The translations under genes and the position numbers were made by a program. This document shows positions 3-18,860 of a DNA stretch of 25,364 nucleotides, one piece after another. Source of the DNA: Carex sylvatica (lineage: Eukaryota > Streptophyta > Magnoliopsida > Poales > Cyperaceae). The notes under the pieces were generated by a model that saw only the letters and a program-made list of their open reading frames with translations, had not been told where the DNA came from and did not search any database. The stretch covers positions 1-25,364 of the forward strand of contig CAXKVR010000644.1 in NCBI GenBank assembly GCA_964058845.1, given 5' to 3'. Every line of letters starts with the position of its first letter. Within the stretch, counting starts at the first letter, position 1.

Positions 3-3000
3 ATTAACCCTAGGGGAGAGGCCAAAGCAGTAACATTGCGAAGTGGGACACAGTACCAAGGACCAGCAATACCTGTCGAGCCAGAAGTCGACCATACGGT
101 CCGTACAAATCCCATACGGCCCGTACCAACACCCCCTGCGATTTCTGAACAGTCAAAGCCTGATCCGATTGAGGTTGTGACTGAGACAACAGACCATACG
201 GTCCGTACAAATCCCGTACGGCCCGTACCGAATGAAACTGATAAACAGAAAAAGAAGGTGACCGAGAAACCACCGCCCTACCGGCCACCAGTACCATTTC
301 CACAGAGACTAGCCGAAACCCGACTCAATGAACAATTCTCAAACTTTCTTGGAGTTCTCAAGCAATTGCACATTACCATTCCATTTACCGAGGCTTTGAC
401 CCAAATGCCAACCTATGCTAAGTTTCTCAAAGATATCCTATCCAATAAACGAAGCTTGGGGGGGCATGAGACGGTGAAATTGACTGAACAATGCAGTGCT
501 ATCCTGAGAAATGAACTTCCACCGAAATTAGGAGATCCGGGTAAATTTTCCATTCCATGTACGATTGGCAAAGCAACCATCCGACAAGCTTTATGCGATT
601 TGGGGGCTAGTGTGAGTCTCATGCCGCGAACTATCTTCGAACGAATGGGTGTAGGCGAGCTTAGACCTACACGGATGACTTTACAACTTGCGGATTCTTC
701 GGTGAGACTACCACTTGGCATAGTGGAGGATGTACCGGTTCGAGTCGGTAAGTTCTATGTGCCTGGTGATTTTGTTGTGATGGAAATGGAGGAAGACAAG
801 GAGGTCCCTATTATTCTAGGACGGCCGTTTTTGAGAACCGCCGGGGCGCTAATCGATGTGAAAAATGGGACTTTAACCTTGAACATTGGAGATGAGAAAG
901 TTCACTTTCAAATCGACCGAGCAATGAAGTATCCCGCTCAACCCGAATCGTGTTATATGGTCGATGTGATTGATGAATTAGTTGAAGAGAAGTTAATGGA
1001 GCAAATCAACAACTCTCTAAGGTATCATTCTGATTTTTTATCTGATTTGCAGGCTGAAACAGGCGATCTTGAGAGAATTTGCGCAGCAGACATGACACCT
1101 GTCTGTCTGGAAGATTTTCCGTACGGGCCGTACACAGATCATACGGACCGTACAACAGACGAATTTAAAACAGAGAAGCTGGAGATTGAGAAGGAACCAA
1201 AAGGCCAGTCTGAAGCTGAGGCATACGGTCCGCACGAAATCCATACGGCCCGTACAACAAGCCAGACAGCACAGACCACTCCCGAATTAAAACCTCTCCC
1301 AGCCACTCTCAGGTACGAATTCCTTGACTCAGAAAAGACATGTCCTGTCATTGTGAATGCAGGGTTGACCCCTGACCAGACCGCCAAGCTCATGGAGAAG
1401 TTGAGAACCCACAAAAGCGCGATTGGGTATTCTATCAATGACTTGAAGGGGATCGATCCAACCACTTGCACACACAGGATCTTGCTAGAAGACGACCACA
1501 AGCCTTCAGTTGAACACCAAAGACGGCTCAACCCGAATTTAAAAGAGGTAGTAAAGAAAGAAATTTTAAAACTTTATGAAGCAGGTATCATCTACCCGAT
1601 TTCTGACAGCAAATGGGTGAGTCCCGTCCATGTGGTTCCCAAGAAAGGAGGAGCAACAGTGGTGAAAAATGAGAAAGAAGAGATGATTCAAACGCGCGTT
1701 GCAACCGGTTGGAGGATGTGCATAGATTATCGGAAGCTCAACGCGGCTACACGCAAGGATCACTTTCCCTTGCCATTTGTTGATCAACTCCTTGAGAGGC
1801 TTGCTAACCACTCATATTTTTGTTATCTTGATGGTTATTCAGGTTTCTTTCAGATTCCCATTCACCCGCAGGATCAAGAGAAGACCACATTCACATGCCC
1901 ATACGGTACCTACGCATACCGTAGGATGCCTTTCGGTCTTTGCAATGCACCTGCGACTTTTCAGAGAGCCATGATGGCTATTTTTTCTGATTTTATTGAG
2001 AAAGAAGTTGAAATTTTTATGGATGATTTTTCTGTATACGGTACCTCTTTTGATGCTTGTTTGGCTAACTTGTGTAAGATTTTGCAGAGATGTGAAGAAG
2101 TCAATTTAGTCCTCAATTGGGAAAAATGTCATTTCATGGTCCAAGAAGGAATTGTCTTGGGGCATGTTATCACCTCTAGAGGGATAGAGGTTGATAAAGC
2201 AAAAATTGAGGTAATCGAGAAACTCGAAATCCCAACAAATGTCAAGGGGGTTCGAAGTTTTTTTGGACATGCCGGTTTTTATCGCCGTTTCATAAAAAAC
2301 TTCTCAAAAATTGCGAAACCTTTGACCAATTTACTTATTAAAGATTCTGATTTTATTTTCACTGATGATTGTGTCAAGTCCTTTTGCAGTTTAAAGGAAG
2401 CTCTTATCTCTGCACCTATCTTACAACCGCCAGATTGGTCACTACCATTTGAGTTGATGTGCGACGCAAGCGATTATGCAGTCGGAGCAGTTCTGGGGCA
2501 GCGGAAAGACAAAAAGCAATGTGTTATTTACTATGCTAGCAAGGTGCTAGATCCGGCCCAAATGAACTACACCACAACCGAAAAGGAGCTTCTCGCCATT
2601 GTTTTTGCTCTCGACAAATTCAGATCATATTTGGTGGGCTCGAAGATAGTGGTCTACACAGATCATGCCGCACTAAGGTATCTCTTAAGTAAGAAAGATG
2701 CAAAACCAAGACTGATTAGATGGATTCTTCTTTTGCAGGAGTTCGATCTCGAGATAAGGGATACGAAAGGAGTCGAGAACTCTGTCGCGGACCATCTGTC
2801 ACGTCTTCATTGGAAAGAAGATACCACAACTAAGCTCCCGATCAACGACTCATTCCCAGATGAACAACTCTTTGAAATCAGTTCTGATCTGGATGAAATC
2901 CATACGGGCTGTACAGAAATTCATACGGCCTGGACAATCCAACATACGGACCGTACACAAATTCATACGGACCGTACAACCACCAACCAGACCAAACAGC

Positions 3001-4304
3001 AAGCTCCCTGGTACGCTGACATCGCAAACTACCTGGTCTCTGGAGTTTTGCCTGCCACAATGTCCCACCAACAGAAGAAGAAACTGAGGTCCGATTCCAA
3101 GTACTACTTTTGGGACGAGCCCTACCTCTTCAAGGTTGGAATTGATGGCGTATTCCGACGTTGTGTCCCATTCGAGGAAACAGACTCTATTCTTGCACAT
3201 TGCCACTCGTCCGCTTATGGAGGACACTCTTCATTCTCTAAGACCACTGCCAAGGTATTACAATCTGGTTTCTTTTGGCCTTCTCTTTTTAAAGATGCAA
3301 GATCTTTTGTTATAGCTTGTGATAGGTGCCAAAGAACTGGAAACATGACAAGACGAAGTGAGATGCCTCTCAACTTTATTCTTGAGGTCGAGATTTTTGA
3401 TGTTTGGGGCATCGATTTCATGGGTCCATTCCCATCTTCTCGAGGGAATGAGTATATTTTGGTGGCAGTCGACTATGTATCAAAGTGGGTTGAGGCCATG
3501 GCGTGCCGCAAGGCTGACTCGAATTCGGTAAGAAAGTTTTTCAATGAGATCATTTTCCCTCGTTTTGGTGTGCCTCGAGCTGTCATCAGTGACGGAGGCA
3601 AGCACTTCATCAATCGACAATTCGCGAAACTCTTGAGCCGACATGGGGTGACTCACAAGGTATCCACTTCTTATCACCCTCAAACTAATGGCCAAGCTGA
3701 GATTTCTAACAGGGAAATCAAGTCGATTTTAGAGAAAACAGTCGCAAGGACGAGGAAGGATTGGGCTTTCAAGCTGCATGATGCACTCTGGGCCTACCGC
3801 ACCGCCTTCAAGACACCGATTGGCATGAGCCCTTACAAGCTGGTGTATGGGAAGTCGTGCCACCTTCCCGTTGAAATTGAGCACAAGGCATTCTGGGCCA
3901 CAAGAGCGATCAACATGGATCTGCTTGCAGCTGGAGAAAAGCGTGTCCTCGACTTGCATGAGCTAGAGGAAATAAGGTTGCATGCGTATGAGAATGCGAA
4001 GTTTTACAAGGAAAAGACGAAGCGCTTGCACGACCAACGCATCTCACCTCGCCAGTTCAAAGAGGGAGATCTTGTACTTTTATTTAATGCTAGATTGAGA
4101 ATTTTTCCAGGTAAACTCAAATCAAGATGGTCAGGCCCATTTCAGGTAGAGAAAGTGTACCCTTTCGGAGCAGTTGATATCTGGAGCAAGGAAAGTGGTA
4201 CCTTCAAGGTAAATGGTCAGCGTCTCAAGCACTACGTTGCTGACCACTTGATGGATGAGCGGAATGTTCAGTTTCTTTCTGACCCCGCTCAGATAGCAGT
4301 TTAA
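3..4304 (+). CDS. gag end-pol polyprotein of Athila-type retrotransposon (5' partial)
   Basis: The frame is open from the left edge to a TAA at 4302-4304, so the true start is upstream. Residues are counted here from the codon at 36. The first codons (KAVTLRSG) match the gag-pol junction common in plant Athila/Tat elements. Protease follows with D188-L-G-A-S and an IILGRPF flap motif near 261. Reverse transcriptase spans about 530-720 with FMDD at 661-664. RNase H spans about 800-925 with candidate catalytic acids D810, E851, D876 and D919. Integrase has a zinc motif (H1057, H1064, C1095, C1098) and a DD35E core at D1127, D1186 and E1222. The C-terminus has the GDLVLLF...[13 protein letters not shown] tail. 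All catalytic residues appear present. The linkers near residues 20-65, 360-408 and 950-985 are low in complexity because they hold the paired palindromes described separately. Confidence 0.95.
93..126. repeat. Paired palindrome group 1 (TACGGNCCGTA x2, 20 bp)
   Basis: Two exact 11-bp palindromes have cores at 95-105 and 115-125, with central bases T and C. They lie in the proline-rich linker before the protease. Confidence 0.9.
195..228. repeat. Paired palindrome group 2 (20 bp)
   Basis: Exact cores at 197-207 and 217-227 lie in the same linker. The spacer (AAATCC) is shared with group 1, so groups 1 and 2 look like a local duplication. Confidence 0.9.
1121..1153. repeat. Paired palindrome group 3 (20 bp)
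   Basis: Exact cores at 1122-1132 (centre G) and 1142-1152 (centre A) lie in the linker between protease and reverse transcriptase. The first core is in a different reading frame from groups 1 and 2. Confidence 0.9.
1222..1255. repeat. Paired palindrome group 4 (20 bp)
   Basis: Cores are at 1224-1234 (one change in the right half) and 1244-1254 (exact), in the protease-RT linker. Confidence 0.88.
2901..2977. repeat. Palindrome group 5, four sites at 21 bp
   Basis: Four sites start at 2903, 2924, 2945 and 2966, exactly 21 bp apart. The first has one change, the second two, and the last two are exact. They lie in the linker between RNase H and integrase. Confidence 0.9.
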
Positions 4305-4344
4305 GTTGAAAGGTGGTCTAGCTAAAGACCTAAAATGAGCGCTT

Positions 4345-4362
4345 CTTGGGAGGCAACCCAAG
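4345..4362 (+). other. Hairpin just after pol
   Basis: CTTGGG and CCCAAG form a 6-bp stem around an AGGCAA loop, 40 bases after the pol stop. From memory, a similar sequence occurs at this position in other Athila-type elements. Function unknown. Confidence 0.55.
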
Positions 4363-4499
4363 CATTTTAAAATTATTTTGTTTAGTCATTTCTTTTACTT
4401 TTGTTTTAGTTTTATATTAGTTTAATTTTGAATTTTCAATTTGTAGTTGTTATTTTTCAATTCTGAGCAGACATGAGAAGTAACCATTTCTGGGAGTTG

Positions 4500-4533
4500 G
4501 TACGGTCCGTACTATATTTCATACGGGCCGTAT
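4500..4533. repeat. Paired palindrome group 6 (21 bp)
   Basis: Exact cores at 4501-4511 and 4522-4532 lie in the noncoding spacer after pol. Confidence 0.9.
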
Positions 4534-5027
4534 GGGAACCATTCGGCGCAGAGCCTCAAGGGGCGCGGCAGAACCTCAAAGGGCGCGACCTTTTCTCTTC
4601 ACACCCCTTCGACTTAACTCCCGTCCTTTCGGTTAGACCCTCTTCCCTTTTAAACCCGACCCCCCCCGACAGACTCTACCCCACACCACATCCTTTTTGT
4701 CGTTTTCTTCCTACGGACCGAACACCACCCCGTATAACCAAAACCCTAGCCGCCGCAACTTTTCCTCCGCCGCTCTCCGCCTCTAGCGGATCGCTGCCAC
4801 CTCACCTCCACACCACCCTTCTCTTTTCCACCGGTCACCGATCTTCTCTAGCAGCTCACCACCTCCGGTCACCATCTCTAGCACAGCACCACCGCCCTCG
4901 TTCGCTGCTACACCCTCGTGATTCCTTCCAGGCCGCACTACAAATCCCTCGCCGCCGACAACTTTTCTACCAAGACACCAACCAAACCCTACCAGCCGCC
5001 TCCTTCCCCTCTGAGCACACACCAGCC

Positions 5028-5104
5028 CTACGGCCCGCACAGACTCCCCATCCAGGCCGTACCAACCACCGTCCGACCCGTACAAATCCCTCTCCGGGCC
5101 GTAC
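5028..5104. repeat. Palindrome group 7, four degenerate sites
   Basis: Four sites start at 5029, 5051, 5072 and 5093 (22, 21 and 21 bp apart). They carry one, two, two and one changes from TACGGNCCGTA. The periodicity is kept although each site has decayed. They lie directly upstream of the second ORF. Confidence 0.75.
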
Positions 5105-5122
5105 CACTTCCTACTGACAGCT

Positions 5123-6457
5123 ATGTCTGGTGAGCGCCGTCAAAAGCGGCGCCAAGACCGCTCCCCCACACCACCCCGTCATCCCTCACCAGAGCCCTAT
5201 GACTCCGGCTCTGACCGCACTTCCTCTGGTGAATACACCGACCGCGCCGACCGCTTCGCGGCACGGTACTTTGAAATGCCCACTCGTCGGATGTACGAGA
5301 ACTTCATCTCTTTACAACGGCGAGTATTCGAGAACACCGCCATGGTTCACTTCGACACACTCCACGCTCTTGGAGTCGAGGATGATTTTAACCTTCTCAC
5401 CGCTGGAATTGGGTTCAGCCCCGATTTCTGGAACATTCGCAACCCCGCCTACGAGATGGACACCAAGGAATTCCTCTCCTCTCTCGACCTGAAGTTGGAC
5501 AACCACGATGTCCTCTTCATCAAATTCCGGCTCTGTAATCAAACCCATCGCGTCTATCTCTCCTCTCTACGCGAGTGGTTCGGTTTCCATCGCGAACCCA
5601 CTACTGACACTCTTAGTTTCCGACCTGGGTGGGATCGAGATACCTTCTGGGCCATGATCACCGGCTGCCCTCGCTCCGCCAACGCATCATACCGAGCACG
5701 CTACATCCCTCACCCGGTTCTTCGTATCATCCAGCGCGCCCTTGCTTCTACCATCTTTGCGCGCGGTGAGACTCAGAACCGCGCCAACACCGTCGACCTC
5801 ATGCTCATGGATACCATGCTCCGTGCCGACTCCGAGTATCCAGACTTGGCCCTTCTCATGGTCCAGCACTGGATTGGGCAGCAGTCCAAAACCAGGCACG
5901 GTGGCAAGATCAGAATTGGGGCTTATGTCGAGGTCATTAAGCAACGCCTTGGCTTGGGTGAGTATCCAGGTCGAGACCCCTGTCCGGGCCCCACTCTGAT
6001 GGACTTTGAGAGCTACCGCCAGGCTCTCTTCCTCACTATCTCCCGTGGCCCGGCCGGTCATTCTGACTACTATGAGTGGCGCTTTGCCGATGGCTCTTCC
6101 CGCCGCCTACCATTTGGACCATCCATCACCGTGGACGACCCCTCCACCTGGTTGGTCTCCGCTACTCCACCTCCTGCCTCTGACATCCCCAGTACCTCCT
6201 TCCAGCCACCCACATCTGCGTATGCCCGCCCTTGCCCAGCTGACCCCTCTCTTAGGGATCTCTACTACCTCATGACTGATATCCGGGCCACTCAGCTGCA
6301 GCAGGACCGCTACATCACAGCCATCCAGGAGCAGACGGCCATTCACACCACTCGACTGGATGAGATTAGTGGCTGCATGTTTGACTATGCCGAGCGTCTT
6401 GGTGACATCGAGGACCAGTTTCGCGACTGGCGCTTCGACCCCTCTTCTGACTACTGA
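5123..6457 (+). CDS. Athila-type second ORF product (env-like position, function unknown)
   Basis: This 444-residue protein is encoded after pol in the Athila-type element. Athila elements carry an extra ORF here that has been called env-like, or grouped with the plant-specific ATHILA ORF-1/putative plant transposon protein families; this assignment rests on position and general resemblance. I see no signal peptide and no convincing membrane segment, so an envelope role is not supported. Residues 1-35 are basic and rich in Ser, Pro and Arg. A conserved-looking globular part runs from about 45 to 330, starting PTRRMYENF. A Pro/Ser/Thr-rich linker (about 335-365) leads to a helical, Gln/Asp/Arg-rich tail (about 370-435) that could form a coiled coil. 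Codon use is C/G-rich compared with pol. The ATG at 5123 is the first in frame and is preceded by the pyrimidine-rich leader. Confidence 0.8.
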   Translation: MSGERRQKRRQDRSPTPPRHPSPEPYDSGSDRTSSGEYTDRADRFAARYFEMPTRRMYENFISLQRRVFENTAMVHFDTLHALGVEDDFNLLTAGIGFSPDFWNIRNPAYEMDTKEFLSSLDLKLDNHDVLFIKFRLCNQTHRVYLSSLREWFGFHREPTTDTLSFRPGWDRDTFWAMITGCPRSANASYRARYIPHPVLRIIQRALASTIFARGETQNRANTVDLMLMDTMLRADSEYPDLALLMVQHWIGQQSKTRHGGKIRIGAYVEVIKQRLGLGEYPGRDPCPGPTLMDFESYRQALFLTISRGPAGHSDYYEWRFADGSSRRLPFGPSITVDDPSTWLVSATPPPASDIPSTSFQPPTSAYARPCPADPSLRDLYYLMTDIRATQLQQDRYITAIQEQTAIHTTRLDEISGCMFDYAERLGDIEDQFRDWRFDPSSDY

Positions 6458-6512
6458 TCAGGTTTCTTTCTCCCTACCCTAGCTTCTTTATTTTTCCCAT
6501 CACATATCCTGA

Positions 6513-6549
6513 AGCATTGAGGACAATGCTCGGACTAAGCTTGGGGGGG
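6513..6549 (+). other. Internal hairpin plus polypurine-tract-like module
   Basis: A perfect 7-bp stem (AGCATTG/CAATGCT) closes an AGGA loop at 6513-6530. It is followed by AAGCTTGGGGGGG at 6537-6549 and then TGAT, the same first four bases as the LTR. It mirrors the module directly before the 3' LTR. Confidence 0.75.
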
Positions 6550-6973
6550 TGATTAGTTATTTTCTTTATTTTGCATTTAGTTTGTCTTAGTTTGTTTCTG
6601 TGTTTGCATGTTTTGAGGATTAAATCTGTGTGAATTGCGTGAATTAGGGTTCAATTTGAAAAATTTTGGTTGTGAAATGGTTGAATTTGGGAAATTGGAA
6701 ATAACCACACATTTGGTTGAAAGAATTGTAAACGATAGTCTGTTTTGGGACTTTGTGGGATTGAATTGAATTGTGTCAAGAAAGCATTTGAAACCGGAAT
6801 ATGCCTTGTAAAAATAGAAAAATGGGATTTCAAAGTAATAGAAAGATTAGGACATCCATTGGTATGAATGAATATCATTGGATGTGTGTATTCATGATGC
6901 ATATGAAGGGAAAAGATGGAGAATATAAGAGTACTGGCAATAAGCCGTGTTAGGCGCCTTTGAGCTCGTCTCC

Positions 6974-7007
6974 CATACGGACCGTACCCAGATCATACGG
7001 ACCGTAC
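6974..7007. repeat. Paired palindrome group 8 (20 bp)
   Basis: Exact cores at 6976-6986 and 6996-7006, both with central A, end seven bases before the A-run and PBS-like sequence. Confidence 0.9.
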
Positions 7008-7030
7008 ACCTATAAAAAAAAAAAAAAAAA

Positions 7031-7043
7031 TGGTATCAGAGCC
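7031..7043 (+). other. PBS-like sequence in the 3' region
   Basis: TGGTATCAGAGCC resembles the primer-binding site complementary to the 3' end of plant initiator methionine tRNA. It follows 17 A residues. A working PBS should directly follow the 5' LTR, so this copy is misplaced and is probably a relic or chance match. Confidence 0.5.
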
Positions 7044-7383
7044 TTTACAAACATCAACACACGAAGTCCGTGACTTTCTGACCTAAGCTTGTTCCAAGCT
7101 TGGGGAAATTTCCAACCACAAATGAGGGCATAAATTTGGTGAAGAATGAACTATTGATACGTTTGATTGCTTAATTCTTACAAATAGCATTACATTCTTG
7201 AAGTTAGGGTTTGATCAATTGAGTTGTGGGGTGAATTAAATTGACCAAAGGAAACCAAGTTACTATCCAAAATGACTCTAATGGATTTCTAACGAACGCA
7301 AGATCATGCACATTTTTCCTCTTAGTAGATTAAGTTGCATTTAGGTAAGTCCAACAACCCGAACCACACCTAAGTTAGAATTT

Positions 7384-7417
7384 TTGCTTGAGGACAAGCA
7401 AAGTTCAAGCTTGGGGG
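7384..7417 (+). promoter_or_regulatory. Hairpin and polypurine tract preceding the 3' LTR
   Basis: TTGCTTG/CAAGCAA (7384-7401) forms a 7-bp stem with an AGGA loop, extendable by one A-T pair. AAGCTTGGGGG at 7407-7417 ends four bases before the LTR and is the likely primer for plus-strand DNA synthesis. Confidence 0.85.
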
Positions 7418-7590
7418 AATTTGATATCTCTATATTATATCTGAATTATGGCCCTAATTTACAATGAAACCTGTGCTTTAAAGCCCATTAATGTGGACTT
7501 TTTACTTATATTTCGATGAAATGTGGTACTGCTATGTTTTGTTTGGTATTTTGCAGGAAAAAGGGCGAAAAACTGGTTCTGACAACTTTT

Positions 7591-7625
7591 CATACGGCCC
7601 GTATGATATTCTGTGCGGGCCGTAC
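7591..7625. repeat. Paired palindrome group 9 (21 bp), LTR
   Basis: Cores are at 7593-7603 (exact) and 7614-7624 (one change). Confidence 0.88.
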
Positions 7626-7691
7626 AAGAACTGCCCAACCACACAGAAGGATCCACAACAGAGGCACAAAGTCTCCAAGTCAAAGCCCAGG

Positions 7692-7726
7692 CATACGGAC
7701 CGTACGGGATCCTGTACGGGCCGTAC
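7692..7726. repeat. Paired palindrome group 10 (21 bp), LTR
   Basis: Exact cores are at 7694-7704 and 7715-7725. The spacer contains GGATCC, so the whole pair is itself roughly palindromic. Confidence 0.9.
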
Positions 7727-8366
7727 AAAGCTGATTCGGAAAATCCAGCTGGAATCTGAATTGAGCACAATTTGAGGAGCCGAAAAGGAAACCCCTGGAG
7801 GCGTGATCTGGGGCATTAAAGGAGATATTCCACAGCAGGAAAGAGGATTAATAGCTAATCAATCAATAACTTTCGGGGGGATTCATTCTATCATTCATTC
7901 ATTCTAGGTTTGCTTGGACAAGGGGAAAAGAAGAAGAGAAGGGGAAGAACGCGAGTTTCTCCACGGATCTTCGGATTTTCCACTGTTTTGTCATGAACTC
8001 TTTTATTCCTTGTTATTTGTGTTATCTCATGAACATGAGTAGCTAATTTTATTTGTTTCTAGGGGTAAGATGTAGTTTCTAGTTTAGTTTTGCTTGTATG
8101 CTACTATGATTTTGTGTTGAACGCTTGGTTTTTACTTTGTTATGTAGTATTTTTATTGCTCTATTTGTGCTTGCTTGAATCTGATTAGTCATCCCGTTAG
8201 ATGAATGCGCACATCTAAGTGTGGAGCCAAGTCTATGAAATTCATTCCAACCGAATAAAGTATATGAAGTAGGGTGAAACCAAGGAGTACCCGAAAGGCG
8301 AAACTTTCCTTGAGGCGAAAGTCCTTGGATACTTTTAGTAAACTAACAAATAACTTAGATAAATTA

Positions 8367-8460
8367 GGCCAAAATGCGAAAGTTGAGGTTTAACGCATCT
8401 AAGAGGGAAGTACTTGAGTCCGGTAATCGGGTATCGGGCCAAAATGCGAAAGTTGAGGTT
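8367..8460 (+). repeat. 24-bp direct repeat inside the LTR
   Basis: The same 24 bases, beginning GGCCAAAATGCGAAAG, occur at 8367-8390 and 8437-8460, 70 bp apart. Confidence 0.85.
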
Positions 8461-8542
8461 AGGTATCTAGATCTGGTCGAAAGAAACCCTAAACACAGTA
8501 TCAACACAGGAAACAGTAGCTGCAGCATTAACTTGAGGTGCA

Positions 8543-8576
8543 ATACAGACCGTACGGGAATCTGTACGGGCCGTAC
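8543..8576. repeat. Paired palindrome group 11 (21 bp), LTR
   Basis: Cores are at 8544-8554 (one change) and 8565-8575 (exact), in the distal part of the LTR. Confidence 0.88.
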
Positions 8577-8893
8577 GCCTTGAGACTGAACAGAAATGAA
8601 ATCTGAACCCTGGAAACGCCCTTTTATCAATTGAAAACAACTTTAATTATCTCTTATTGTCTTTTAATCAGTAGAATTGTTAGAACTAAAACCAAACCAA
8701 ATTCTTCTCACTTCTAGAATCTCAAGTGATTTTAGGATAAGTATAGTGTTTTTATTCCGTCCCTGTGGATCGATACCTGAGCATACTCAACGACAGGATA
8801 GTACACTTGCTATCTGAATTGACAGAGTATAACAAAGGTTTAAAAAGTATAGCTTGCTATACTGAAACTTTTTGGCATATTCTCGTGCGATCA

Positions 8894-11155
8894 ATAGGCA
8901 ACCAAGAACCTTAAAAAATGTAAAATCAGGTTGATGACTGAAAAGAAACTCAAAAGGCGATTTGAAATCCAGAACAGCTGTAGGGAGCCGATTAATGATG
9001 AACACTATGCTCTCAAAGATGTGATCCCAATACTTGAGAGGGATAGATGCTTGATCCATAAAAGCCAATGCAAGTTCCACAACATGCCTATGTTTGCGTT
9101 CAACAACATCATTCTGCTCGGGAGTATAAGGACAAGAAATCCAAAAAGTAAGGTCAGGAAATCAGCTCATGAGGGGTTTAAACTCAGTGCTGCCATTACA
9201 CTGCAAGGCTTTGAGAGAGGTAGAAAGAAGATTTTCCACTCGGGTCTTAAAATCCACAAAAATATCAGCCACTTGAGACTTGGCAGAACATGTGAATAAC
9301 CAAGAAAATCGAGAGAAATCATCGACAAAAAGTATATAAAATCTATTGTCAAGAGTAGAAGTTACAGGAGAAGGACCCCACACGTCCACATGCACAAGTT
9401 CTAACGGCTTATAAGCCTTATTTGTAGACAAAGAGAAATGCAACCTATGACTTTTGAATTTATTACAAGCAGCACAATGAGTATCAGGAGAAACAGAAGA
9501 GATGTGATGAGCCTTTTGTAAGTGCCGAAGAACAGGAACAGAGGTGTGACCAAGCTGATTATGCCAAAGGTCACCACTAGAAACATCACAGAGAAGAATA
9601 GCAGTACTAGGTAGGAAGTAAAGACCTTGAGAAATACCCCCTTCAAGCAGCACCTTGTGAGTCTTAGGATCCTTAAGCACACAATCAGAATTATTAAATT
9701 CAACAATTAAATTGTTGTCTCGAGTGAGTCGAGAAATGCTTATTAGCCTTTTTGTAATATGGGGAACATGCAGAACATTTGAAAGAATCAATTTTTACTT
9801 GCCAGATAAGAGAAAATAGGAGCCAATGTGAGAAATGGATAAATCGTGGCCATTACCAACACGAACTACATCATTACCTTGATAAGGAGTGTAGTCAATA
9901 AAGCAATTGAGGTCCGAAACTATGTGAGATGAGGCACCAGAATCGAGGAACCAGTCACTGGTAGGAGAAGTAGAAGGTTGAGCGAGATTGACCTGAGGCA
10001 GAGGTGAAGGGTCATCATCATAACAGTACCAGCACTCCTTGGCAGCATGACCAATTTTCATACAAATTTGGCATTGAACAGTGATAGTGTTGCCTTGACC
10101 ATTATTGCCACCAGTACCACCATTGCCATGGCCTTGAGAACTATGCTGAGAAGTACGAGAAGAGTAATTGGATCTCTCACGGCCACGACCCCTGCCTCGT
10201 CCGCCTCTATAATTTGACCTACTGAGCTGCTAAGAGATATAGGTCGCAGCCAATTGCTGCTGAGTTTTGCCAAGGGAGAGTAGAGAGAAGCACAGGGGCT
10301 AAAACGGAGGAAAGATTTGGAGAAGAAGAAGGATTTAACCCATCAGAAAGAGGTGGAGGTAATAACAGAGCGAATTGAACAGTGGAAGATTTAACGGGTT
10401 CGTTAAAAACAGAACCCAAACTAGCTCCATTAGAAATAAAAGGAGGCAGAAGGGTCAGTTTAGAAGAATCGCCACCTAAGGTGAGAAGAGCAGCTTGATC
10501 ACAAAGCCTTTAAGAAGCAAGGCGCAATTCAAAATTGAGGAGGTGACCGTGTAAGTCAGCAATGGAGAAGGTTGTAGGCTGTGAGGTAAGAGAAGTCACG
10601 AGAGAATTATACTCAGGCTGCAGACCAGCAAAGAGGCACAAAGATAAGTCCTAATCACTGACTACGCATCCAATAGAGCTCAGCTGAAGAGCAATGAATT
10701 TGAGACAATTGGGGTATTTCGTGCAGGTCAAATTTTCTTTCTTCAAGGTTTGAAGCTGAAGTTTCAATTCAAGAACACGAGAGGTGGATTGAACCGAATA
10801 AGTCGAGTGAAGCATGCGCCAGAGATCGGCAGAGGTCGTATAGCAAACTACCTGAGGAAGAATCGCCGGACCAAGGCTAGAGAGAAGCCAAGCTAAAATC
10901 AGCTGATCTTGCCGTTCCATCAGGTTGCAGATTGGCACCAGTGGAGGCAGTGGTAGTGCACGAAGAAGTGGAGGAAGGTGAATCGAGATAGGATAGAAGG
11001 CCATGACCTCGGATGATAGGTAACACTTGTGATTTCCAGAGCAAGAAGTTCGATTCGTCAAGTTTTGGATTGATTGAATAATGAAACTGTATCGGATTGA
11101 TAACAGTGGGTAGAGGAGAGGGGGTTGGGGTAGGATTCGAAGGAGGATCAGACAT
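8894..11155 (-). pseudogene. copia gag-pol pseudogene (gag, protease, integrase; broken)
   Basis: Gag starts at 11155 with a serine/proline-rich N-terminus and a typical NFLLWKSQV stretch. A frameshift near 10920 moves the reading to the frame covering 11061-10651, and further stops follow. The zinc knuckle CQIC...H...C (CX2CX4HX4C) is at 10073-10032. Protease shows LDSGASSH near 9947-9925. Integrase has a zinc-finger region (HNQLGH, CAAC) and the core VHVDVWGP, but the second catalytic position reads QCNGSTEF where families usually have an Asp, so D has become N (codon at 9197-9195). A TGA at 9164-9162 interrupts the frame. After it come YTPEQN and VVERKHRH, holding the catalytic Glu. The frame ends at FKVLGCL, where the other element begins. 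Confidence 0.9.

Positions 11156-17690: not shown

Positions 17691-17740
<50 letters not shown>
17691..17740. repeat. (TC)n(TA)n microsatellite
   Basis: A CT run passes into about 17 TA units and abuts the next foldback element. Confidence 0.9.
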
Positions 17741-17743
<3 letters not shown>

Positions 17744-18150
17744 GAACTAGGGTGCTCTTAAGCTCACCAAAGTGTTTGGTGAGCTTAACTCCAAAATCTA
17801 TCAAATCGGTTTCAAATGACGAATCCGAACTGTTGGAACCCGTCTACCTTACAAGTGATGCATCTACATGTGAAAATTTTAAACATTCAAATTGATTTAG
17901 TATAAAGTCAATCGGTCAAAATTAGAAGGTTAATAAATTAATTTTAGTGCATTCATTTTTTGAACGTTTTTTGACCGCTTGACTTTATACTAAATCAATC
18001 TGAATGTTTAAAATTTTCACATGTAGACGCATCACTCATAAGATAGGTGGATTTCAACGGTTCGGATTCGTTATTTGAAACCGATTTGATAGATTTTGGA
18101 GTTAAGCTCACTAAATACTTTGGTGAGCTTAAGAGCACCCTAGTTCTACT
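17740..18150. mobile_element. Foldback element A in a TA tract (about 411 bp)
   Basis: The left starts AGTAGAACTAGGGTGCTC and the right ends with its complement, GAGCACCCTAGTTCTACT. The arms fold back along about 175 bp each around a central stretch near 17915-17975. TA repeats flank both sides, so the insertion target was probably (TA)n. Confidence 0.85.
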
Positions 18151-18185
18151 CATATATATATATTTATCTATATATATATATATAT

Positions 18186-18604
18186 GAGCAAAGCTAGGGT
18201 GTGATGTGCTCACCAAGAAGTTTTGGTGAGCACAACTCCAAAAGTATATCGAATAAACTTCAAACGACGAATCCAAACCATTGAAATCCACGTACTTCAT
18301 GAGTGATGCATGTCCATGCAAAATTTTGACAGTTTTGAATTCATTTGCTACAAGGTCAAGCGGTCAAAAAAATGAACATTTTATTTATAAGTTGTTTTAT
18401 ATATTCATTTTTCATTATTTCTTTGACCGCTTGACCTTGTAGCAAATGAATTCGAAACTTTCAAAATTTTGCATGAACATACATCACTTATGAAGTACAT
18501 GGATTTCAACGGTTTGGATTCGTCGTTTGAAGTCGATCCGATATACTTTTGGAGTTATGCTCACCAAACTTTTTTGGTGAGCACATCACACCCTAGCTTT
18601 GCTC
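18186..18604. mobile_element. Foldback element B in a TA tract (about 419 bp)
   Basis: The left starts GAGCAAAGCTAGGGTGTGAT and the right ends with its inverse, finishing CTAGCTTTGCTC. The interior resembles element A (CTCACCAA near the ends, ACTCCAAAA, GACGAATCC, GGTCAAGCGGTCAAA). TA runs flank both sides. A and B are separate but related insertions only 35 bp apart. Confidence 0.85.
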
Positions 18605-18635
18605 ATATATATATAAATATATATAGAGAGAGAGG

Positions 18636-18860
18636 CTAATTTGCATTCGGTAACATATGGACCGAAGTGCTACCGGTTCAAATTTAAAATTTCAAAATCT
18701 AAAAAATCAATCTGAACTGTTAGATGTGATATCTATATTGAAATGTGATTGAAAATCAAATTTTATATTTTTCTGAATTTTTTTACTATTTATTAAGTCA
18801 CTTTGAAAATCGCTAATTTATGGATCACTTAACAAAACAGTAAAATCGCATTTTGCTGCC
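18636..18860. mobile_element. Half of a foldback MITE (left arm only)
   Basis: It carries the left-arm features of MITEs 1-3 (CTGAACTGTTAGATGTGAT, AATCAAATTTTATATTTTT, ACTATTTATTAAG) but no matching right arm. It ends about 130 bp before the PPR start and may form part of that promoter. Confidence 0.6.

Follow-up and report, generated by a model that had tools for sequence, protein, structure and literature searches.

Paired palindromes with family-specific words in Athila retrotransposons of the sedge Carex sylvatica

The window examined here is a 25,364-nt stretch of Carex sylvatica DNA (contig CAXKVR010000644.1) that begins inside a long terminal repeat (LTR) retrotransposon carrying paired copies of a short palindrome, TACGGNCCGTA. 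The element is of the Athila type (Ty3/gypsy): Pfam scans place protease, reverse transcriptase (RT), RNase H and integrase, in that order, in a 1433-aa frame; the long open reading frame (ORF) that comes next matches PF03078 (ATHILA). This is the domain order and extra ORF of the Athila lineage. A sequence resembling a primer-binding site, TGGCGCCGTTGCCGGGGA, which we take to be of the Athila type, follows the 5′ LTR of a close relative. The window copy is truncated at its 5′ end, where the contig itself begins at base 1. Its 3′ LTR is delimited approximately, the end (~8893) by alignment to the 5′ LTR of a close relative and the start (~7422) by eye, at a TG after a G-rich tract. The nearest named relatives of its proteins come from sedges (Carex and Rhynchospora), and among the protein matches listed the identity to the window's two ORFs is at most 79%. 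The features are listed below; palindromic sites are given without strand.

3–4304, + strand: open frame with the end of gag, protease, RT, RNase H and integrase, 5′ end cut by the contig start (Pfam)
95–125: first palindrome pair before protease, sites at 95 and 115 (exact-match scan)
197–227: second palindrome pair before protease, sites at 197 and 217 (exact-match scan)
1122–1152: palindrome pair in the protease–RT linker (exact-match scan)
1224–1254: palindrome pair in the protease–RT linker, first site with one mismatch (mismatch scan)
2903–2976: group of four in the RNase H–integrase linker, 21-bp period (mismatch scan)
4501–4532: palindrome pair after pol (exact-match scan)
4712–4722: lone near site, one mismatch (mismatch scan)
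5029–5103: degenerate group of four, upstream of the ATHILA ORF (mismatch scan)
5123–6457, + strand: ATHILA ORF (PF03078), 444 aa, candidate trans-acting factor (Pfam)
6976–7006: palindrome pair in the 3′ region upstream of the LTR (exact-match scan)
7422–8893, + strand: 3′ LTR, approximate ends (end by alignment, start by eye)
7593–7624: first LTR pair, second site with one mismatch (mismatch scan)
7694–7725: second LTR pair (exact-match scan)
8544–8575: third LTR pair, first site with one mismatch (mismatch scan)

The exact palindrome occurs 17 times between 95 and 8575 and nowhere else in the window. An initial annotation, made from the sequence alone, had called for a comparison with shuffled sequence: 100 dinucleotide shuffles yielded no exact copy, and with up to two mismatches the window holds 29 matches against 3.6 ± 1.9 in the shuffles, 28 of them within the element and one at 18656. 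Of the 28 element sites, 26 have a partner (17 exact, nine near); they make up nine pairs plus two groups of four, and their 15 neighbour gaps measure 20 bp (five), 21 bp (nine) or 22 bp (one). These figures agree with the 17 exact and about nine near copies of the initial annotation, with its grouping and its spacing of 20–22 bp only, and also with its claim of a free central base (A7 C7 G8 T4 in the 26 paired sites). Its remark that no site is isolated was not quite right, since the sites at 1902 (two mismatches, inside RT) and 4712 (one mismatch) have no partner; as it had noted for catalytic domains, no paired site lies inside the Pfam domains of protease, RT, RNase H or integrase. The 12 coding sites are spread over all three reading frames (relative to the frame starting at 3), and three pairs lie inside the 3′ LTR. 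Across the assembly (64 Mb in 950 contigs), exact sites number 1166 against 23 for the reversed pattern, and exact pairs at a 20-bp step 127 against 0. In the close relative L001, sites are also found in the 5′ LTR, and a pair (1501, 1521) precedes the first ATG of the frame, in the 5′ leader; the leader pair is missing from the window because the window begins inside the element.

The family to which the window element belongs (family A) is represented by at least 33 integrase matches, the window included, that are ≥94% identical over their full length, in a search that scored 150 of 421 candidates. Other copies could have lacked the sites; all 30 family loci that were cut out, of which the window is one, carry them in the RNase H–integrase linker or the post-pol stretch, and the spacing recurs. 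Constraint was measured as the number of alignment cells departing from the majority of their column, with up to 29 relatives compared (10–29 rows, depending on the stretch). In pol-side non-coding DNA, 46 of 1535 motif cells were changed against 1210 of 15888 flank cells, and at third codon positions 11/440 against 1392/22266 (one-sided column test p = 0.035; 16 against 785 columns), which means that in these classes the sites change about 2.5 times less than their flanks. Site centres were changed in 32 of 263 cases and, at second codon positions, in 7/110 against 205/22417 in the flank, while CpGs were intact in 464 of 477 cases inside the motif and in 2659 of 3003 outside it. By these counts, the sites in the pol-side stretches are under selective constraint as DNA. 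Position −5 is T in all 26 paired A sites; in 24 of the 26 a C stands right after the palindrome, in most cases giving CCGTAC.

A blind search for gapped palindromes was applied to 14 further loci picked by integrase identity or PF03078, with five simulated sequences per locus as background (maximum 4–7 sites). Arrays were found in 11 of the 14 loci, falling into five other families (B, C, D, E and G), of which four pair mostly at 19–22 bp with a word of their own and the fifth, G, has few pairs. The words of B, C, D and E reach 10–21 sites per locus against the simulated maximum of 4–7. Family B reads TTGCGGYCCGCAA / TGCGGNCCGCA (20 and 21 sites in L036 and L038), and all 20 of its gaps up to 40 bp measure 21–22 bp; assembly-wide there are 333 copies of the exact B word and 2 of the reversed pattern. 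The corresponding proportion is 15/15 at 19–22 bp in family A, 30/34 at 19–21 bp in family C (YACGRNYCGTR, that is, CACGGNCCGTG and relatives; 16 and 14 sites in L037 and L046), and 16/20 at 20–21 bp in family D (YGCGANYCGCR, TGCGANTCGCA; 10 sites in L048, with L039 covered by directed scans and left out of the blind count because a satellite-like repeat swamped the search). In family E (CCGCANTGCGG; 11, 11 and 10 sites in L035, L042 and L045) the half-sites TGCGG/CCGCA are everted, with similar steps of 6 and 14–15 bp kept (L035), and 35 of 51 gaps measure 20–22 bp in a loose scan. Family G uses GTGCGNNCGCAC (9 and 8 sites in L044 and L047) and has the palindrome habit in common with the others, the pairing not clearly. 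The blind search found a CG-type array in none of L040, L041 (not Athila) and L043.

Placed relative to integrase, the arrays of C and D are found ahead of protease, in the protease–RT and RNase H–integrase linkers, downstream of pol, ahead of ATHILA and in the 3′ region (the LTRs of the sister families were not delimited). Families B and E lack arrays ahead of protease and in the RNase H–integrase linker, which is short in them. The arrays of A and C occupy homologous places that can be aligned, and their words have changed in parallel; position −5, T in A, is C in 21 of the 31 sites of family C (L037). CGR-N-YCG is common to the words of families A–D, and every consensus half-site contains a CpG. 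Among families of one genome, the layout is thus common and the word family-specific.

Some details of individual families may be recorded here. Departures from CGGNCCG in family C (L037/L046) are one-sided, reading CGACCCG or CGGGTCG, and the doubly changed CGANTCG, which equals the D core, is found in 0/30 and 1/22 paired sites, respectively. In family B every paired site has C or T at its centre on the + strand (20/20 in each of L036 and L038), so that B sites are oriented although palindromic. At L039 (G000:C938:11139-21039), an inverted stretch resembling a family-A LTR, with three pairs and a repeat rich in CTCCAA/GTTGTA, lies inside or adjoins the D-family copy.

The pairing may reach beyond this assembly. 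Six words and five control words were looked for, as peptides able to encode them in any frame and repeating at 19–22 nt, in 141 proteins from two protein searches (120 pol, 21 ATHILA). Ten word-encoding pairs were found in five proteins: seven TTCGGNCCGAA pairs in two Rhynchospora breviuscula proteins, a D word pair and a B word pair in one Carex rostrata protein each, and an A word pair in protein P0002. Neither the C and E words nor the five control words gave a peptide pair at this spacing in the 141 proteins; single peptide matches carry little weight, being common with the control words as well. We picked the TTCGG word after viewing one of the Rhynchospora proteins (P0043), the other (P0072) not having been viewed beforehand. 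By eye, and with no statistics applied, the printed linkers of non-sedge Athila relatives have no such repeats. In a pol-domain tree, Carex P0064 and P0071 fall with B, Carex P0036 and P0037 fall with D, and the Carex rostrata proteins that group with B and D encode B-type and D-type peptides. Judged from these peptides, linkers of Carex and Rhynchospora Athilas imply the same pairing, and since the words of B and D are met again in Carex records of matching lineage, which we take as a second host, words seem to follow the element lineage across hosts, with several words coexisting in one host.

Elsewhere in the window, two tandem copies of a 20-bp unit (GCAGAACCTCAAAGGGCGCG) lie at 4548–4587, shortly after the post-pol pair. 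Minus-strand open frames at 8787–10229, which by eye resemble pieces of Ty1/copia gag-pol, adjoin the Athila 3′ LTR. A 452-bp unit is repeated in tandem, in about two copies, at 17698–18625, beside the weak two-mismatch match at 18656.

The arrays are a real, selected feature of several related families; as to their mechanism, we give a probability of roughly one half to the reading that they are family-specific, operator-like arrays for a sequence-specific dimeric DNA-binding protein that would activate or protect the chromatin of the element, with the ATHILA-ORF protein as first candidate. Each palindrome would be bound by a dimer and each pair, its members about two helical turns apart, by a dimer of dimers sitting on the same helix face, along the whole element, LTRs and coding-region linkers included. 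Since each Athila family has its own word, the putative reader is most likely encoded by the element and would evolve with it. Once bound, it may activate the element's chromatin or shield it from silencing, in the manner of VANC/VANDAL systems. The initial annotation had already proposed protein-binding arrays with VANC as precedent, and this fits best because the sister families share a layout and differ in their words; the binding itself, like an effect on transcription or silencing, we infer.

The ATHILA-ORF protein is an unproven candidate for the reader. It is the fastest-diverging of the proteins compared, with 42% identity between A and C against 89% for RT, 92% for RNase H and 84% for the integrase core, the array-bearing linkers standing at 49–53%. 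It has a basic N-terminus and no transmembrane stretch, and an AlphaFold2 model (mean pLDDT 80) predicts a globular domain and a long C-terminal helix that could dimerise.

Several observations weigh against this reading. The ATHILA protein is net acidic, and its model gave no convincing match in PDB or BFVD and no recognised fold. L035 (family E) keeps arrays without an ATHILA ORF, which the family member L042 has; conversely, the 10 kb seen of L043 include the ORF but no CG-type arrays, the best blind word there being AAGTA N3 TACTT (nine sites against 5–7 simulated, unexplained). Family G is nearly pairless (0/2 and 1/1 of its gaps up to 40 bp at 20–22 bp), and family C tolerates YACGR, so that words are partly relaxed. 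The match between word and lineage could be explained by inheritance alone. The expectation that half-sites change more slowly than flanks around a free centre was borne out in pol-side stretches and only weakly in the 3′ region and LTR (six copies plus the window: motif 9/547 against flank 337/14502, centres 6/54), and one member of the 6976/6996 pair is lost in two of six copies. Motif cells are not clearly slower at first codon positions (5/440 against 320/22323) or at second positions (5/220 against the flank value given above). Finally, the covariation of left and right half-sites that the initial annotation had suggested looking for is absent, and deviations look independent.

L043 (G000:C44:224001-234000) is itself an Athila-derived fusion lacking CG-type arrays: its frame, 1416 aa from the first Met, has gag, protease and ATHILA domains and no RT, RNase H or integrase domain match. 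Similar ATHILA matches lie in long frames at C692:15391-16119 and C109:166942-167670.

Host transcription factors or insulator-type proteins might bind the arrays instead, with families switching among host factors, a possibility that we regard as rather unlikely. The C that follows nearly all paired A sites completes, in most of them, CCGTAC, which we take to be an SBP/SPL-type core, and the CGR-N-YCG shared by families A–D also speaks for this possibility. Drosophila gypsy, with its host protein Su(Hw), offers a precedent. The words of B, D, E and G, however, contain no GTAC, and therefore no single SBP-like factor fits; moreover, one genome holds families with different words side by side, and both the B and the D word turn up in Carex records of the same lineages.

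A role in RNA, in which the members of a pair form a hairpin stem, mostly with a 1×1 central mismatch, for dimerisation, packaging or translation, appears improbable. The lowest-energy fold was a hairpin in all ten window pairs tested (z ≤ −2.17 in nine, −0.45 in one; this covers neither the four sites ahead of ATHILA nor the first two sites in the linker group of four), and pairing at 20–22 bp would set the length of the loop. Nevertheless, hairpins are disfavoured because pair members show no covariation: centres were complementary in 12 of 78 pairs against 16.8 expected (the 20/78 of family B are uninformative, their centres being always C or T), so the RNA contacts envisaged by the initial annotation are not supported as the main role. 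At flanking positions, six of seven loci stayed at or below an excess of 3 cells, both within and between sites; the loosely scanned L039 went above it in both. Independent deviations of this kind speak against a structure-based function and are neutral between readers of a fixed word; in addition, a hairpin requires neither internal palindromes nor one common word.

Least probable of all, we think, is that the arrays are a host-silencing or neutral by-product, either CpG/CHG-rich methylation or small interfering RNA targets or repeats left by slippage or conversion without benefit: the CpG in every consensus half-site, the weak constraint in the LTR region and the small RNAs drawn to Sirevirus palindrome clusters (PMC10760457) would suit it, whereas motif CpGs decay less than other CpGs, third codon positions are slower around free centres, conversion fails to explain a common word because the flanks between sites differ, and methylation targets as such, another suggestion of the initial annotation, leave the family-specific flanks unexplained.

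The binding of a family-specific dimeric protein, the reading we prefer, invites comparison with three known systems. The initial annotation knew of no formal description, yet the palindromic repeated-motif (RM) boxes of Sirevirus elements come close, although in another superfamily, Ty1/copia; 12 of 13 have a CGG-CCG core, with element-specific flanks and locations in the LTR and before env, and they are called Sirevirus-specific, with no common binding factor found (PMC2829016). As there, the Athila elements carry many palindromes, in the LTR and before an extra (env-like) ORF (window 7593–8575 and 5029–5103), and here also at further places in pol. They differ in that the host is a Ty3/gypsy element, that the sites are paired at 19–22 bp and also occupy pol coding linkers, and that the core varies: family A has at least eight CGG-CCG-core palindromes per element (17 exact), family D does not (mainly CGA-TCG), and family E is everted. 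In VANDAL21, VANC21 binds arrays of YAGTATTAY, and the targets of related VANCs diverge with the turnover of tandem repeats (PMC5735166). Short family-specific motifs dense in one mobile element and diverging between related families are a property shared with the Athila arrays, the VANC side having an element-encoded reader with variable regions (PMC5735166). The VANC21 motif, in contrast, is non-palindromic and lies in same-orientation arrays mainly in non-coding regions, and VANC carries DUF1985/DUF287 (PMC5735166), neither of which Pfam listed among the domains of 26 ATHILA proteins and five ORFs of the window. By these comparisons the Athila arrays share the logic of Sirevirus RM boxes and VANC targets and belong to neither. 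The insulator of Drosophila gypsy is likewise an array of protein sites, for Su(Hw), inside an LTR retroelement, as the Athila arrays would be if bound; it differs in having a host zinc-finger reader, a single array in the 5′ UTR and non-palindromic sites.

In its most specific form, which we put forward tentatively and consider doubtful, the preferred reading becomes one of self-recognition: the dimeric ATHILA ("env-like") protein of each sedge Athila family would read its own paired palindromes, written through LTRs, leader, spacers and coding linkers, and so activate or de-silence copies of its own family only, in a VANC-like manner evolved independently in LTR retrotransposons. It might extend to the CGG-CCG boxes of Sirevirus.

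Such a reading would give the long-unexplained ATHILA/env-like ORF a testable role. The six natural words (A–E and G), five of them with nearly one layout, form a specificity series within one genome, and a second code, at the level of DNA, seems to be written into retrotransposon coding sequence where it links one domain to the next. The repeated motifs of Sirevirus and the targets of VANC are thereby tied to one question, namely how transposons mark their own DNA.

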